A stretch of DNA of 64,000 bases, from NCBI RefSeq assembly GCF_011926545.1, contig NZ_JAATIT010000002.1, positions 62,001 through 126,000 of the forward strand. The letters run 5' to 3'. The notes under the pieces are model-generated. The model did no database searches. It saw nothing but the letters and a program-made list of their open reading frames with translations, and was not told the origin of the DNA. Shown piece after piece: positions 22,462-63,228 of the stretch; position 1 is the first letter of the stretch, and every line of letters starts with the position of its first letter. The position numbers and the translations under genes were made by a program. The DNA comes from Sphingopyxis italica. GTDB taxonomy: Bacteria > Pseudomonadota > Alphaproteobacteria > Sphingomonadales > Sphingomonadaceae.

Positions 22462-23094
22462 ATGACCAATCTCGTCCTCCACGATTATTTCCGTTCCTCG
22501 GCCAGCTTTCGCGTCCGCATCGCGCTGAACCTCAAGGGGCTCGACTATGATCGCGTCGAGGTCAGCCTGATCGCGGGCGAGCAGCGCAGCGACGCCTTTC
22601 TCGAACAGAATGCGCAGGGCTTTGTCCCGATGCTCGTCGTCGATGGCGAACCGATCATCCAGAGCATGGCGATCATCGACTGGCTCGACCGCGCCTATCC
22701 CGAACCGCGGCTGATCCCCGAGGACGCGATGCCGCGCGCGGTCGCGCTCGCGCGCGCGCAGGTGATTGCGAGCGACATCCATCCGCTCAACAATCTCCGC
22801 GTGCTCAAATATCTGAAGCGCGACCTTGGGCTCAACGAGCAGACCAAGGACCGCTGGTATCGCCACTGGATCGTCGAAGGCTTCGACGCGCTGGAAGCGA
22901 TGGCGGGCGAGGGGCGCTTCCTTGGCGGCGATACGCCGGGGATCGCCGACTGCTGCCTCATCCCGCAGATGTATAATGCACGGCGGTTCGACACCCCGCT
23001 CGACGATTATCCGCGATTGGTCGCGATCGACGCGGCGTGCATGGAGCATGACGCGTTCAAGAAGGCGCATCCCGACGCGGTCAAGCCCGCGTGA
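22462..23094 (+). CDS. maiA: maleylacetoacetate isomerase (zeta-class GST)
   Basis: Isomerises maleylacetoacetate to fumarylacetoacetate in tyrosine/homogentisate catabolism using glutathione. The 210-residue protein has the zeta-GST N-terminal signature YFRSSASFRVRIALNLKGL (SSxS active site, here SSAS rather than SSCS), QGFVPMLVVDGEPIIQSMAI for glutathione binding, and an all-helical C-terminal half. The remaining catabolic genes are not adjacent. Its stop overlaps the GTG of the TonB-receptor gene. Confidence 0.9.
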   Translation: MTNLVLHDYFRSSASFRVRIALNLKGLDYDRVEVSLIAGEQRSDAFLEQNAQGFVPMLVVDGEPIIQSMAIIDWLDRAYPEPRLIPEDAMPRAVALARAQVIASDIHPLNNLRVLKYLKRDLGLNEQTKDRWYRHWIVEGFDALEAMAGEGRFLGGDTPGIADCCLIPQMYNARRFDTPLDDYPRLVAIDAACMEHDAFKKAHPDAVKPA

Positions 23095-25221: not shown

Positions 25222-25668
25222 ATGGCCGCGAAGAAGCTGAATCTCGATAATTTTCTGCCCTATCGCCTGTCGATCGCATCGAACGCCCTGTCGAGCCGGA
25301 TCGCCGCCGAATATGAGAATCGCTTCGGTTTGAAGATTCCCGAGTGGCGGCTGATGGCGGTGCTCGGCGAGGGCCGGCCGAAGACGCAGCGCGAACTTGT
25401 CGCCGCGACGCGCATGGACAAGGTGACGGTCAATCGCGCCGCCAAGGCTCTCGCGGATCGCCAGTTGATCGCGCGCCAGGCGCATGAGGCCGATGGGCGC
25501 TCGCATCATCTCGAGCTCACCGAAACCGGCCGTTCGCTCTATGACGCGATCGTGCCGGCGGCGCTCGCGAGCGAGGCGCAGCTCGAATCGAACATCAGCG
25601 CGGCCGAACGCGCGACGATGATGGCGATCCTCGCCAAACTGACCGCCGCCGCCGAAGATTATGGCTGA
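25222..25668 (+). CDS. MarR-family transcriptional regulator
   Basis: A 148-residue winged-helix repressor. The recognition region is TQRELVAATRMDKVTVNRAAKAL, followed by the wing DRQLIARQAHEADGRSHHLEL and a dimerisation helix. It ends inside the start of the PqqD-like gene (8-base overlap), so it is the first gene of a four-gene operon and probably controls it. The ligand is unknown. Confidence 0.9.
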   Translation: MAAKKLNLDNFLPYRLSIASNALSSRIAAEYENRFGLKIPEWRLMAVLGEGRPKTQRELVAATRMDKVTVNRAAKALADRQLIARQAHEADGRSHHLELTETGRSLYDAIVPAALASEAQLESNISAAERATMMAILAKLTAAAEDYG

Positions 25669-25942
25669 TCGCGCCTATCGCGCCGCGCCCGCCGATACGC
25701 TGCGTATCGAGCCGCTCGGCGAGCTGACCGCGATTTTCGACCGGCGATCGATGCAGACGCATCTCGTCGTGTCGCCCGTGCCCGAAATATTGGACGCGAT
25801 GGGCGCCGACGCCTGCACGCCCGCGCACGTCGCCGAGCGGCTGGCCGCGCTGTTCGATATGGAAAGCGCCGAGGAGGCGCAGCCGATCCTCGCCGAGCGG
25901 CTTTCGGAACTCGCCGCGATGGGACTGGTGGAGCGCGCGTGA
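25661..25942 (+). CDS. PqqD-like peptide chaperone of the HPr-rel-A system
   Basis: A 93-residue protein with the PqqD fold. It has the N-terminal strand TLRIEPLGELTAIFDRRSMQTHLV, the helix VPEILDAM, and a terminal LAAMGLVERA. PqqD-like proteins bind leader peptides of ribosomally made modified peptides. The gene is followed by an HprK-related kinase and a nucleotidyltransferase in the order known for HPr-rel-A clusters (TIGR04353/TIGR04352). Both boundaries overlap the neighbours, giving tight translational coupling. No precursor peptide gene was identified nearby. Confidence 0.78.
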   Translation: MADRAYRAAPADTLRIEPLGELTAIFDRRSMQTHLVVSPVPEILDAMGADACTPAHVAERLAALFDMESAEEAQPILAERLSELAAMGLVERA

Positions 25943-26805
25943 GGCATAGCGCGCGCATCGCGGTCGGCCCGGTGCAATTTCGCATCGGCAGCGATTGGGC
26001 CGGCCCGGTCGCCGCGCTCGAACGGCTTTATGCGGCCTATCCGCAGGACGATATGCGCCCCGCCGACGCGACGGTGCGGCTGTTCGCGGCGCGGCCGTGG
26101 CGGCGCTGGCTGCGGCCGTCGGTGCATATCGGCGGCGATTTCATCGTCCCCGGCGCGCTGCCGCTGCCGCTGTCGATGGGGCTGCTCGCCGCCGAGATGG
26201 GGATGAACTTGCAGGTTGCGCTCGGCTGGCGGCGGCACCTGCTGCTTCACGCGAGCGCGGTCGCAAGGGACGGCCGCGCGCTGATCATGTCGGGCGAATC
26301 GGGATCGGGCAAATCGACGCTCGCTGCGCTGCTGGGCGAGGACGACTGGCGGCTGATGGGCGACGAGTTCACGCTGATCGACCCGGCGGGCGGCGATGCC
26401 TTTGCCTTTCCGCGCGCGGTGAGCCTCAAGAACGAAGCCATTGCAGAAGTCGCGGCGCGCGTCGATCCGGCGCGGCTTGGGCCTTTGCTCGCGGGGACCC
26501 CGAAGGGCGACATCCGCCACCTGATCCCGCGCGCCGACGCGGTCGCCGCGATGCACGCGCCCGCGCGCCCCGCGCTGCTCCTCTTCCCGCGCTTCGGCGG
26601 CGCGGCCGGCATTGAACCGATGGGCGAGGGCGAGGCCTTCGTCCGGCTGACCGAAGCGTCGACCAATTATGTCGCGCTCGGCGAGGCTGGATTTGCGGCG
26701 CTGACGCGGATGGTCCGCGAAACGCCGGCGTTCGGCATCACCTATCCCGACAGCGCGGCGGGGATCGCGCTGGTCGAAGAATTATGGGCGGAGGCGGCGC
26801 GGTGA
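25939..26805 (+). CDS. HprK-related kinase A
   Basis: A 288-residue P-loop protein related to HPr kinase/phosphorylase. Walker A is GESGSGKST at residues 119-127, preceded by LLLHASAV. A Walker-B-like MGDEFTLID is at residues 140-148. It lacks the DRTA-type phosphatase hallmark of true HprK, and no HPr gene is close. It belongs to the HPr-rel-A system, where the phosphorylated target is unknown. It begins at GTG 25939 overlapping the PqqD-like stop and ends overlapping the nucleotidyltransferase start. Confidence 0.82.
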   Translation: MRHSARIAVGPVQFRIGSDWAGPVAALERLYAAYPQDDMRPADATVRLFAARPWRRWLRPSVHIGGDFIVPGALPLPLSMGLLAAEMGMNLQVALGWRRHLLLHASAVARDGRALIMSGESGSGKSTLAALLGEDDWRLMGDEFTLIDPAGGDAFAFPRAVSLKNEAIAEVAARVDPARLGPLLAGTPKGDIRHLIPRADAVAAMHAPARPALLLFPRFGGAAGIEPMGEGEAFVRLTEASTNYVALGEAGFAALTRMVRETPAFGITYPDSAAGIALVEELWAEAAR

Positions 26806-27821
26806 GCGCCGTCGCCGCCTTCGTCGACCTGCTCGCCGGGCGGCGCGACGCCGCGACGCTGGGGCCGCGTGACTGGGACGGCCTGATCGGCGTCGCGCGC
26901 AGCGAAGCGATGCTCGCGACGCTCGCGCACCGGCTTGACGGCGCCGCCGTCCCGCCCGCAGTCGCCGCGCTGTTCGCCGACCAGCGGGCGGCGGCGGAGG
27001 TCGCGCAGCGCCAAGCCTTGTGGGAAGCCGAGATGGCGCGCCGCGCGCTCGCGCCGGTCGGGATCGAATTCGTACTGCTGAAGGGCGCGGCCTATGCCGC
27101 CGCGGATATGACGTGCGCGGCGGGGCGCCAGATCGGCGACCTCGATATCCTCGTGCTCGGGGCCGACATTCGCCGCGCCGAAAATGCGCTGCTCAAGGCG
27201 GGCTGGGAATGGGTCAAGTCGGACCCCTATGACGATCATTATTACCGCGCACACATGCACGAGCTGCCGCCGATGATTCACTCGGGCCGCGACCGCATGA
27301 TCGACGTCCATCACACGATCCTGCCAAAGACGCACCGGATCACACCCGACGCGCTCGCGCTGGTCAGCGATGCGGTGACGAGCGGCGGCGGCTTTGCGGT
27401 GCTGCAACCGACCGATATGGCGGTGCATTGCGCGGCGCACATGCTCGCCGACGGCGATCTGCAGGGGGGCTTACGCAACCTGTGGGATTTTCACCTGATG
27501 ACGCGAGGTTTCGCGGCGGCCGATCCTGGGTTTTGGAGGCAGCTCGACGGCCGGGCGGCGTTGCACGGGCTGCAGGATGCGGTGCACCGTGCCGCGCGGC
27601 TGTCGCGCGACCTTTATGGCGCGGCGCTGCCGGGCGGATGGGACCGGCAGGATCCCGCTGATATCTGGTTCCGCCGCCGCCTGCTCGCGCGCGACGATTG
27701 GGGGCGGGTGACGCAGCCGCTGCTCGAACAGGCTTTCTACATCCGCTCGCACTGGCTGCGCATGCCGCCGGCGATGCTCGCGAAGCATCTCTGGACGAAA
27801 TGGCAGAAACAGCATTCGTAA
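26802..27821 (+). CDS. nucleotidyltransferase-fold protein of the HPr-rel-A operon
   Basis: The 339-residue protein contains a nucleotidyltransferase-family core. FVLLKGAAYAAADMTCAAGR and QIGDLDILVLGAD supply the G-x-DxD metal site. Then comes MIDVHHTILPKTHRI and a helical C-terminal half with HCAAHMLADGDLQGGLRNLWD. Similar proteins transfer AMP or a nucleotide to a protein or small molecule; the target here is unknown. GTG 26802 overlaps the kinase stop in the same GTGA manner as the kinase start, so it is preferred over ATG 26784. It is the last gene of the operon; repeat A' follows. Confidence 0.82.
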   Translation: MSAVAAFVDLLAGRRDAATLGPRDWDGLIGVARSEAMLATLAHRLDGAAVPPAVAALFADQRAAAEVAQRQALWEAEMARRALAPVGIEFVLLKGAAYAAADMTCAAGRQIGDLDILVLGADIRRAENALLKAGWEWVKSDPYDDHYYRAHMHELPPMIHSGRDRMIDVHHTILPKTHRITPDALALVSDAVTSGGGFAVLQPTDMAVHCAAHMLADGDLQGGLRNLWDFHLMTRGFAAADPGFWRQLDGRAALHGLQDAVHRAARLSRDLYGAALPGGWDRQDPADIWFRRRLLARDDWGRVTQPLLEQAFYIRSHWLRMPPAMLAKHLWTKWQKQHS

Positions 27822-27828
27822 CCCATGC

Positions 27829-27916
27829 CCGTTCGCCCTGAGCTTGTCGAAGGGCTGTTCTTTTCCTTATGCGATCAAAAGAAAGAACGGTCCTTCGACA
27901 AGCTCAGGACAAACGG
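27829..27916. repeat. palindromic intergenic repeat, family A'
   Basis: The outer arms begin CCGTTCGCCCTGAGCTTGTC and end with the inverse GACAAGCTCAGGACAAACGG. An inner GTTCTTT/AAAGAAC pair forms a second stem. The element lies at the convergent end of the nucleotidyltransferase and gph genes. Confidence 0.8.
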
Positions 27917-27931
27917 ATAATTTGGAGCGGG

Positions 27932-60640: not shown

Positions 60641-63228
60641 TGGAACTGAAGGATTATCAGCTCCGCGCGCTAGATGCACTGAGGACCTTTCTGGACCAAG
60701 CGGCAATACGCGATCATGCCCACGCTTATACAGCCGCCTGTGCAGTGGGCCAACCGGGCGCCTATGCTGCGACCTATTCCCCGTTAGCTGGGCTGCCGGA
60801 CGTTCCCTATTGCTGCCTTCGCCTGCCGACCGGCGGCGGCAAAACCTTGCTCGCCGCCCATGCAATCGGCGTGGCGCGGGACACCTATCTCGCCCGGCGA
60901 TTCCCGGTCGTGCTATGGCTCGTCACTTCAACCACCATTGCTGAGCAAACGCTGGGCGCGCTCAGAAAGGTGAGCCATCCTTATCGGCAAGCGTTGGAAA
61001 CGGCCTTTGGTGGTGCTGTGCGCGTCTATGGCATCGATGAGCGAAGGCAGCTTCGCCCGCAAGACATGGCGGATGCGACGACCGTGATCGTTTCGACCGT
61101 GCAGGCGTTCCGCGTGCGCAACGCCGAAGATCGCAACGTCTATCTCGACGACGAGGAACTAGAACCGCACTTCGCCACGCTGCCCACCAGTGCCGATGTT
61201 ACCCGGCACGAGGATGGCCCGCGCCGGGGCAAGCCGATCGCCAGCTTTGCCAATCTGATGAAGTTGCATCGTCCGCTTGTGATCGTTGATGAGGCGCACA
61301 ATTTCACCTCCACCCTTTCCGGTGAGACGATGGGGCGCATCGCGCCTGCAGCGGTCGTGGAGTTTACGGCGACACCTGTGCGCTCGAACGTCATCGTGTC
61401 CGCCACTGCCGCGGAGTTGAAGGCAGCGGACATGATCAAGCTGCCGATCCACCTTTCGCAGCATGGCAGCTGGCAGCAGGCGATCGCACACGCAATTGAT
61501 AATCGTGCTTGGCTCGAAGGCATTGCCGTCCGAGACGGCGGCGGTATTCGACCAATCGCGCTCTATCAGGCGCAGCCCGCGCGCGAAGGCGCCGAAGCGA
61601 CCGTGGATGTCGTCAGACGTCACCTGATCGAAGATTGCCGTATCCCAGAGGACCGGATCGCGGTGGCCACGGGCAACCAACGTGAGCTAGATGGTATCGA
61701 CCTATTCGATCCGGCCTGCACGATTGAGCACGTCATCACCGTCGATGCCTTGAAAGAAGGTTGGGACTGCTCCTTCGCCTATGTGTTCTGTTCGCTTGCC
61801 AGCATTCGCAGCGGCGGCGCCGTGGAGCAGTTGCTCGGCCGCGTGCTGCGCATGCCGTTCGCAACGCGACGCTCGTCAGAGGAACTGAACCGCGCCTATG
61901 CCCACGTATCCGAGCGCAATTTCTTTGATGCAGCCGAGGGCTTGAAAGATCGACTTACCGAAATGGGCTTCGATGAGCGCACAGCACTGGAGGCGATCGT
62001 CGAACAGCCCGCGACTTTCGAGTGGCGCGAAGACCAATCGCTGTTCACGCGGCCGGAGTTGCCTGTGCTGCACGTCCGGGACCGGCCCGATCAGAGCAAT
62101 TGGACCCCCGAGATGGTCGCTGCAACCCGGATGGCAGATGACGGAGCAGGTGGAGTTGCGATCACATTCGATACGTCTGCACCGGACGAGGTGCTCCGCG
62201 AAGTAGTCACAGCAGTTACAAGCGCCGAAGTCACGCCGACGACGGCGGTGGAGGCTTTTATCGCCCGTCGCGCGGAGTCGCTATCACCTGCTGAGCAGGG
62301 CGAGGTCCTGACGTTGCCCCGGTTGGCGATTGAGCGGGATGGGCAGCTCGAAATCGTCTTCCCCGAGACGCTGGTCGACGTGGGAGGATGGGATCTCCGG
62401 CAGGTCGACACAGGCCTGCCCGGCTTTGCTTTGACCGAGCGCCCCGACACATTCGAGATGGATGTGGATGGCGACCAGGTGGTCTACAATCGCATCGACG
62501 CCGCCGCCGAATTGGCGCTCGACGACGCGACCGATTGGGACGTGGCCGCGCTGTCTCGTTGGCTTGATCGCACGACGCGCCAGCGCGACGTCTCCCAGCC
62601 TATATTTCTCGAGTATTGCCGGCGCGTTGTTGAAGGGGTTGTGGAGCGTATCCCGCTGGCGCAGCTTGTGCGCGGTAAATTTGCGCTGCGAAGGGCCATC
62701 ATCGCAAAAATCGTACAGCAACGCCGCGAAGCCGGCATGCGGGGCGTACAGTTGTTGATGACGGATATCGCACCTGTTCTTTCCTTGGGTGACAACGGCT
62801 TCAGCTTCTCAAAGGCTGGCTATGATCCGCGCACGCCGTATTCGGGGCCGTGGCGACCACGGAAGCATTTGTTCGCGCAGGTCGGCGACCTGAGGCATGG
62901 CGGTGAAGAATGGATGGCCGCGGTGCAGATCGACGACCACCCGGCTGTGCACCGTTGGGTTCGGAACGTTGATCGGACAACTTGGTCCTATGCACTGCCA
63001 ACCTCGACAGACCTGTTCTACCCCGACTTCGTCGGCGAACTTACTGATGGGCGTAAGCTCATCGTCGAATACAAAGGGGCTGACCGGACGGACAACGCGG
63101 ACAGCCGCGAGAAAAGGAACATTGGAGCGCGGTTGCAGGAGGTCAGCGAGGGCAAGGTCGTGTTCCTTTGGGCGGAATTGGATCGCAACGGGTCCGTCAA
63201 TCGACAGATCGACGCAGCGATCGAGTGA
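60640..63228 (+). CDS. res: type III restriction endonuclease helicase subunit (Res)
   Basis: The 862-residue restriction subunit. It has a superfamily 2 helicase domain with Walker A LPTGGGKT (near residue 62), Walker B/DEAH in VIVDEAHNF (near 216), FTATPVRS, and the helicase motif VI region GGAVEQLLGRVLRMP. A long middle region is followed by a C-terminal PD-(D/E)xK-type nuclease: FYPDFVGEL and LIVEYKGAD. It translocates or signals along DNA to cut near unmethylated Mod sites. Together with mod it forms a complete type III system on the island. Confidence 0.94.
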   Translation: MELKDYQLRALDALRTFLDQAAIRDHAHAYTAACAVGQPGAYAATYSPLAGLPDVPYCCLRLPTGGGKTLLAAHAIGVARDTYLARRFPVVLWLVTSTTIAEQTLGALRKVSHPYRQALETAFGGAVRVYGIDERRQLRPQDMADATTVIVSTVQAFRVRNAEDRNVYLDDEELEPHFATLPTSADVTRHEDGPRRGKPIASFANLMKLHRPLVIVDEAHNFTSTLSGETMGRIAPAAVVEFTATPVRSNVIVSATAAELKAADMIKLPIHLSQHGSWQQAIAHAIDNRAWLEGIAVRDGGGIRPIALYQAQPAREGAEATVDVVRRHLIEDCRIPEDRIAVATGNQRELDGIDLFDPACTIEHVITVDALKEGWDCSFAYVFCSLASIRSGGAVEQLLGRVLRMPFATRRSSEELNRAYAHVSERNFFDAAEGLKDRLTEMGFDERTALEAIVEQPATFEWREDQSLFTRPELPVLHVRDRPDQSNWTPEMVAATRMADDGAGGVAITFDTSAPDEVLREVVTAVTSAEVTPTTAVEAFIARRAESLSPAEQGEVLTLPRLAIERDGQLEIVFPETLVDVGGWDLRQVDTGLPGFALTERPDTFEMDVDGDQVVYNRIDAAAELALDDATDWDVAALSRWLDRTTRQRDVSQPIFLEYCRRVVEGVVERIPLAQLVRGKFALRRAIIAKIVQQRREAGMRGVQLLMTDIAPVLSLGDNGFSFSKAGYDPRTPYSGPWRPRKHLFAQVGDLRHGGEEWMAAVQIDDHPAVHRWVRNVDRTTWSYALPTSTDLFYPDFVGELTDGRKLIVEYKGADRTDNADSREKRNIGARLQEVSEGKVVFLWAELDRNGSVNRQIDAAIE

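Follow-up and report, generated by a model that had tools for sequence, protein, structure and literature searches.

A run of overlapping genes in Sphingopyxis italica encodes a PqqD-like protein, a kinase related to HPr kinase and a nucleotidyltransferase, and raises the question of what molecule such a combination of proteins acts upon. The genes lie in a stretch of 64,000 nucleotides (hereafter the window; positions 62,001 to 126,000 of contig NZ_JAATIT010000002.1). An earlier reading of its letters without database searches (the sequence-only reading) had proposed a peptide-modifying or protein-phosphorylation system, a description that proves right as a class. We consider it probable that positions 25661-27821 encode a three-protein machine, known as HPr-rel-A, that modifies one small protein, encoded in trans in this genome, in the cytoplasm before its export by the twin-arginine translocation (Tat) system. 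The association of this small protein with the cassette is well supported. The genes under study are the following.

25222..25668, + strand: MarR-family regulator gene (MarR_2 PF12802, 48.5 bits; cut-off 27)
25661..25942, + strand: gene for a PqqD-like protein of the RRE type (recognition element of ribosomally synthesized and post-translationally modified peptides, RiPPs; TIGR04353, 47.0 bits; cut-off 35), the proposed leader binder for the small protein
25939..26805, + strand: HprK-related kinase A gene with a GTG start (TIGR04352, 224.9 bits; cut-off 200), a proposed protein kinase
26802..27821, + strand: nucleotidyltransferase gene with a GTG start (PF14907, 179.0 bits; cut-off 31.2), whose product has the proposed role of adding a nucleotide or sugar to the phosphate

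Read directly, successive genes overlap by 8, 4 and 4 bases, the same values as in the sequence-only reading; starting the nucleotidyltransferase at an alternative in-frame ATG at 26784 would give an overlap with the kinase gene of 22 bases instead of 4. The PqqD-like, kinase and PF14907 nucleotidyltransferase genes together form the cassette that NCBI names "HPr-rel-A", and the nucleotidyltransferase is the single PF14907 match in the whole genome. Both curated TIGR cut-offs are exceeded, which bears out the HPr-rel-A label of the sequence-only reading, and it was likewise right in recognizing an RRE-type protein, a DxD nucleotidyltransferase and an HprK-like kinase, whose catalytic residues are intact. 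In a scan of named genomes of which the best 80 of 180 loci were kept, the nearest kinases come from two Sphingopyxis and one Sphingomonadaceae bacterium, at 87-91% identity.

A small protein that accompanies the cassette

In a phylum-wide sample, 48 of 249 genomes (about a fifth; 46 above the family cut-off) carry a TIGR04352-type kinase, as do 100 of 298 Sphingomonadaceae genomes (about a third). In the latter sample a small protein with a Tat-type signal follows the kinase closely, occurring in 95 of the 100 kinase-positive and 0 of the 198 kinase-negative genomes (Fisher 1.5e-72, a value that, like the one given below, is too small owing to the relatedness of the genomes); by genus, it is present in 32 of 32 with the kinase and 0 of 64 without. 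This is the kind of conserved small open reading frame for which the sequence-only reading had recommended a search. Four of the five kinase-only exceptions (L195-L198) have a diverged relative directly upstream, and the fifth is G442. Across the phylum, where small proteins of types I, Ib and II were counted together, matches at E 1e-3 or better were recovered in 45 of 48 kinase-positive versus 4 of 201 kinase-negative genomes (Fisher 4e-41; 20 of 22 versus 4 of 109 by genus), the kinase-positive rate being partly built in by the origin of the profiles; the near absence from kinase-negative genomes is not affected by this circularity. The three misses comprise two genomes with sub-cut-off kinases (G040 and G091) and a genome that is 57% complete (G189), and the four kinase-negative matches (G171, G156, G222 and G227) are weak (E 1e-4 to 2e-4). 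For the six sphingomonad genomes in this phylum set, the result was taken from the Sphingomonadaceae-wide search.

To describe the genomic setting, we compared 101 kinase loci, namely the window, 20 loci chosen by place and the best 80 of 180 from a scan of named genomes (L040 and L068 are probably one genome). A small protein of one family is encoded upstream of the PqqD-like gene in 33 of the 38 sphingomonad loci (including L067), and the five loci that lack it there are the Sphingopyxis-type ones, the window among them. A C-terminal [ST]-C-[FY]-x-S is found in 32 of 32 of the first-listed loci, in a family that was first gathered with the C-terminal motif and then extended by profile. Other small proteins stand at the same position in beta- and gammaproteobacteria: type Ib, with S-C-[WYL]-x-S at or close to its end, and type II, which has a C..PSG..SGN-type start and carries the C-terminal [ST]C..S motif in 0 of 20 cases. 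In type I, 44 of 44 proteins have a Ser at a distance of 1-11 residues from the C-terminus; of these, the type Ib proteins and those of the initial sphingomonad set were partly motif-selected, and the 11 diverged-and-own proteins were found by profile. Second or unlinked type Ib proteins also occur on contigs without the kinase (G185:C66:1826-2293; G022:C159, G069:C56, G081:C72 and G125:C91), some of which may only reflect broken assemblies.

All small proteins that were aligned begin with a twin-arginine signal, and a strict pattern for this signal was present in 75 of 101 upstream zones versus 82 of 897 control zones, with upstream zones misplaced by more than 150 bases in 13 loci. No credible curated family emerged for the small proteins compared with the databases (best E 0.15 for six scanned against Pfam and 0.04 for ten scanned against NCBIfam) or for the 20 type II members (best E 0.068 in Pfam and 0.0013 to an usher model), the latter matching TAT-signal models at E 0.0017 and 0.094. 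In both annotated records viewed, the small protein is labelled "hypothetical protein". An AlphaFold2 model of one type I protein has a mean predicted local distance difference test score (pLDDT) of 66.6, with residues 1-42 under 50; comparison with the PDB gave no structural match at E < 0.001 and no sequence match better than E 0.32, where a weak or missing match does not amount to a new fold.

The cassette itself is highly conserved. The PqqD-like gene could be detected at 93 of the 101 kinase loci and the transferase gene at 97, in an order that hardly varies (the transferase is displaced at L055 and L133), in agreement with the sequence-only reading's picture of one tightly coupled machine. 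That reading would have been refuted by rare co-occurrence in other genomes, or by a non-functional Walker motif together with the lack of a peptide partner; the genes do co-occur, and the Walker A residues G124, K125 and T127 are identical in all 101 loci. The kinase residues His104 and Asp142 are also kept in 101 of 101 loci and Glu143 in 100, both Asp of the transferase DxD are present in 97 of 97 with one further Asp in 99% of them, and all 53 members of the PqqD-like set A4 match TIGR04353 at E 0.1 or better. The Sphingomonas parapaucimobilis annotation gives the same order of PqqD-like, kinase and nucleotidyltransferase genes. On a Vibrio alfacsensis plasmid, the DNA that separates a type II-like small protein from the kinase carries no annotation but contains a PqqD-like-sized open frame (L200:5687-5974), and annotation may overlook small RRE genes of the HPr-rel-A system. 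The MarR gene is outside the conserved system, since its cluster was found in only 5 of the 101 loci, all of them Sphingopyxis-type among the 38 sphingomonad loci.

The separated genes of Sphingopyxis

The sequence-only reading had stated that no precursor peptide is visible nearby, which is correct within the window but fails once the whole genome is considered. The small-protein profile, from whose training set this genome (G000) was excluded, recovers a copy at C2:455425-455811 with 193.9 bits, about 366 kb from the cassette (C2:87222-89821). The protein starts MENSDIPAG, has the signal PSRRRMLALGAVGVSAALTIRPAFA followed by Q (cleavage site by eye) and ends in SGFTCFASITTSR; the signal has the twin arginine, hydrophobic stretch and A-x-A-type site of a Tat signal. 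Searched against curated families, it matched nothing at E 1e-4. We propose that the small Tat-signal protein is the fourth member of HPr-rel-A, present but unlinked in this genome.

The neighbours of the two separated parts suggest how they came apart. The window cassette is still followed by HAD-type, GlmU and GlmS genes, as in other sphingomonads, and the small-protein gene is divergent from a histidine kinase gene, as in Sphingomonas (best family PhoR, 285.9 bits, below the cut-off of 334.2). Because each part keeps its own side of the ancestral neighbourhood, the break seems to have fallen between the small-protein and PqqD-like genes, and the MarR gene would have come to stand in front of the cassette; it occupies the position where other sphingomonads have the gene for the small signal-bearing protein. 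In G422 and G500, of the same genus, the small-protein gene and cassette are together. The idea that the cassette itself had moved was dropped, as the Sphingopyxis cassette keeps the HAD-GlmU-GlmS flank of other sphingomonads.

Several further observations concern these surroundings. The displaced small-protein gene adjoins a fumarylacetoacetate hydrolase-like gene (L179:8362-9402; named by eye, with no NCBIfam match) that is conserved in L180-L183, and a maleylacetoacetate isomerase gene lies at 22462-23094 of the window, with the cassette starting about 2.1 kb after it; the two are possibly halves of one old operon, which would be the other partner of the rearrangement. Just 3′ of the nucleotidyltransferase stop, positions 27830-27919 contain a strong inverted repeat (CCCTGAGCTTGTCGAAGG ... 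CCTTCGACAAGCTCAGG) that appears terminator- or REP-like by eye. A phoR-like gene stands divergent to the small-protein genes of sphingomonads, which prompted a comparison of CTGTCATNNNNCTGTCAT with the 400-base regions that precede the MarR gene and 28 small-protein genes; the best sites had 4-6 mismatches, in a comparison made without a shuffled control, and Pho regulation was dropped.

The separation also bears on a rival view, in which long-standing adjacency passed on as an operon would explain the pairing of small protein and cassette, and the two would not be linked in function. In favor of this view, the relatedness of the genomes inflates the counts given above, and the genes are adjacent in most loci. 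However, both genes are kept where they are at least 163 kb apart or on different contigs, namely in the window genome, G214, G364, G464 and G532, and across the phylum sample both leader and co-occurrence are maintained even as the mature sequence changes. We therefore regard inheritance without function as improbable, and favor a functional link between the small protein and the cassette.

Proposed leader recognition and the PqqD-like fold

A simple leader expression matched 46 of 69 control genes and was thus non-discriminating, and profile tests were used instead. A leader model built on type II only scored 12 of 12 type Ib and 11 of 11 diverged sphingomonad leaders higher than any of 143 control segments, and with a combined leader model the upstream leader outscored every one of 3241 control segments in 89 of the 101 loci (57 of 69 among non-training loci); these controls are signal-like segments in general rather than proven Tat signals, and the whole-genome searches are the better control. 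Profile comparison of types II and Ib gave an alignment confined to the leader, and that of the sphingomonad family and type Ib one confined to the leader and the first Cys. Judged by these alignments, a common leader appears to precede differing core or mature regions, a feature resembling that of RiPPs.

The PqqD-like protein is a plausible reader of such a leader. Its AlphaFold2 model (pLDDT 92.8) has as its best PDB match the TbiB1-leader complex 5v1v (Foldseek probability 1.00, E 0.008; Z 10.4 and root-mean-square deviation 2.7 over 86 residues by VIA-align). A second lasso B1 with leader (6jx3) reaches Z 9.9, with a deviation of 2.9 over 85 aligned residues, and further matches include PqqD (5sxy) and domains of other RiPP enzymes. 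The likeness to lasso B1-type RREs is one of fold only, and because non-RiPP proteins also reach Z 6-9 against the model, the fold alone is no proof of leader binding.

A twin-arginine signal on every aligned small protein could also mean that the small protein has its own Tat chaperone in the PqqD-like protein and is an exported partner rather than a substrate, with the kinase and transferase acting elsewhere, for example on a cell-envelope sugar or lipid. The neighborhoods of the cassette lend this some weight: GlmU and GlmS clusters follow it in 22 of 38 sphingomonad loci each, the window included, and many beta- and gammaproteobacterial loci have genes that resemble, by eye, glycosyltransferases, asparagine synthases and other polysaccharide genes. 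In four Sphingobium loci (L075, L078, L081 and L082) an extra gene of about 386-392 codons, in the same cluster as the glycosyltransferase-like genes (named by eye) of beta loci, lies between the small-protein and PqqD-like genes. Because of these sugar-related neighbors, this is the most serious of the rival explanations. Against it, PqqD/RRE folds are typical of precursor-modifying systems, the lasso-peptide systems discussed below offer a direct precedent for precursor peptides as targets of a kinase and a nucleotidyltransferase, and the kinase family and the small protein go together in lineages whose neighboring genes are quite dissimilar. We thus judge the chaperone explanation unlikely and prefer leader-guided modification of the small protein. 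A gene for a secreted trypsin-like protease (family by eye) also recurs by beta- and gammaproteobacterial cassettes (cluster 15; 13 loci, including L043, L099, L117 and L127).

The kinase, the proposed modification and its standing

The kinase resembles bacterial HPr kinase/phosphorylase (HprK) over one segment only. It aligns with the HPr kinases 2qmh, 1jb1 and 1ko7 over about 55 residues around the P-loop, with the preceding His also aligned, and scores 10.8 bits against Hpr_kinase_C, below the cut-off of 33.3. The P-loop similarity would suit a phosphorylation switch acting on the phosphotransferase system protein HPr or another regulator. Such a switch is, however, highly improbable in view of the limited extent of the similarity, of a kinase family that tracks the small protein, and of the location of HPr, which is encoded on a different contig, with a second, weak HprK-like match about 1.7 kb away; the sequence-only reading had correctly noted that no HPr lies nearby.

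Parallels also come from lasso-peptide tailoring (PadeK, ThcoK, SyanK; PsmK/PsmN), which is reported to combine a PqqD-like RRE, an HprK-like kinase with His-Lys-Asp residues, a nucleotidyltransferase and a leader-bearing precursor. HprK-like kinases are described as phosphorylating the C-terminal Ser of lasso precursors, and PsmN as adding one or two hexoses to the phospho-Ser, a later swap of nucleotide for sugar by a host enzyme not being excluded (PMC8498205, PMC9266682). The catalytic motif reported for lasso-peptide kinases in PMC9266682 is His-Lys-Asp-Asp; our reading of the alignment suggests that the cassette kinase has equivalent residues, with the last Asp replaced by Glu in the window kinase family. 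By analogy, we propose that the same logic is applied here to a small exported protein. The differences are that the precursor is about 120-280 residues long and bears an export signal, that no B2-type protease lies next to the window cassette, and that its contig lacks a strong match to a cyclase.

The cassette might instead tailor lasso peptides encoded elsewhere, supplying kinase, transferase and B1-like protein in trans. The genome does contain two lasso-like loci away from the cassette, with Transglut_core3 and Asn_synthase together at C1:889198-891218 and C4:97161-99064 (L204-L208), and lasso clusters can include such kinases and transferases. Yet PF13471 (Transglut_core3) matches occur only on C1 and C4, where PF00733 matches are also strong, and none is on the cassette's contig, C2, which has one PF00733 match (31.3 bits) about 18 kb from the cassette. 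The kinase distribution moreover follows the small protein, at 95/100 versus 0/198, and tailoring of lasso peptides in trans is very improbable next to modification of the small protein.

Under the mechanism that we infer for the latter, the PqqD-like RRE protein would bind the N-terminal segment of the precursor, which would double as the twin-arginine signal, and the HprK-like kinase would phosphorylate a conserved hydroxyl residue, for which the leading candidate in type I is the Ser within the [ST]-C-x-x-S motif at the C-terminus. As type II is without this motif, its acceptor may be a Ser near the mature N-terminus. The PF14907 enzyme would then add a nucleotide or sugar to the phosphate, as reported for PsmK/PsmN on lasso precursors, and the finished protein would be exported by Tat, with signal peptidase removing the leader. 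Dependence on Tat is suggested by the signal, and this route would suit a protein whose modification must be finished in the cytoplasm. Production with a signal peptide and cytoplasmic modification before export are also described in PMC12636315 for RiPP-lipoprotein hybrids such as DybA and for some bufferins; those systems differ in having multinuclear non-heme iron oxidative (MNIO) enzymes and lipoprotein-type signals in place of a kinase, a nucleotidyltransferase and a Tat-like signal. The terms "Tat" and "twin-arginine" have no occurrences in the main text of PMC12636315 or PMC12452194.

A number of points weigh against this proposal. The profiles derive from kinase-linked loci, and 8 of the 12 type Ib (A6) rows come from phylum-set genomes. 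The type II-only leader model places only 9 of 21 ordinary sphingomonad leaders above the controls (20 of 21 are above the 95th percentile) and 53 of 81 other loci above every control. In 12 of the 101 loci no upstream leader scores above the controls; these are the five Sphingopyxis-type loci, two at contig ends (L118 and L123), L043 (which has one by eye), L045 (a weak candidate), two with sub-cut-off kinases (L048 and L049) and L115. A single universal acceptor is not supported, given the 0 of 20 count in type II, and the length of the precursors, together with a fairly confident mature region in one modelled type I protein, is unlike most RiPP precursors. The modification is itself something that we infer, and the cassette may have a sugar role in view of the GlmU and GlmS genes downstream in sphingomonads and the polysaccharide-type genes at many beta- and gammaproteobacterial loci.

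What was already known is the cassette as named by NCBI (NCBIfam TIGR04352/TIGR04353). The window agrees with it in its PqqD-like protein, kinase and adjacent PF14907-type transferase; the NCBIfam model names shown state no substrate, and Sphingopyxis departs from the usual arrangement in that the small gene is split off and a MarR gene stands in front. No paper on the HPr-rel-A system was found in the literature library that we searched. New here are the partner protein, its in-trans location in this genome and the shared leader. On a broader scale, it is possible, and we suggest it only tentatively, that these loci represent an unrecognised class found throughout Pseudomonadota, in which the twin-arginine signal would be the RRE-bound leader, a kinase and a nucleotidyltransferase would add a phospho-nucleotide or phospho-sugar before Tat export, and several unrelated mature domains would be served through one leader. 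The near one-to-one partner protein turns a system whose substrate had been described as unknown into a question that can be tested by co-expression and mass spectrometry. A signal peptide that also served as the recognition leader would unite the export of a protein and its leader-guided modification in a single segment.

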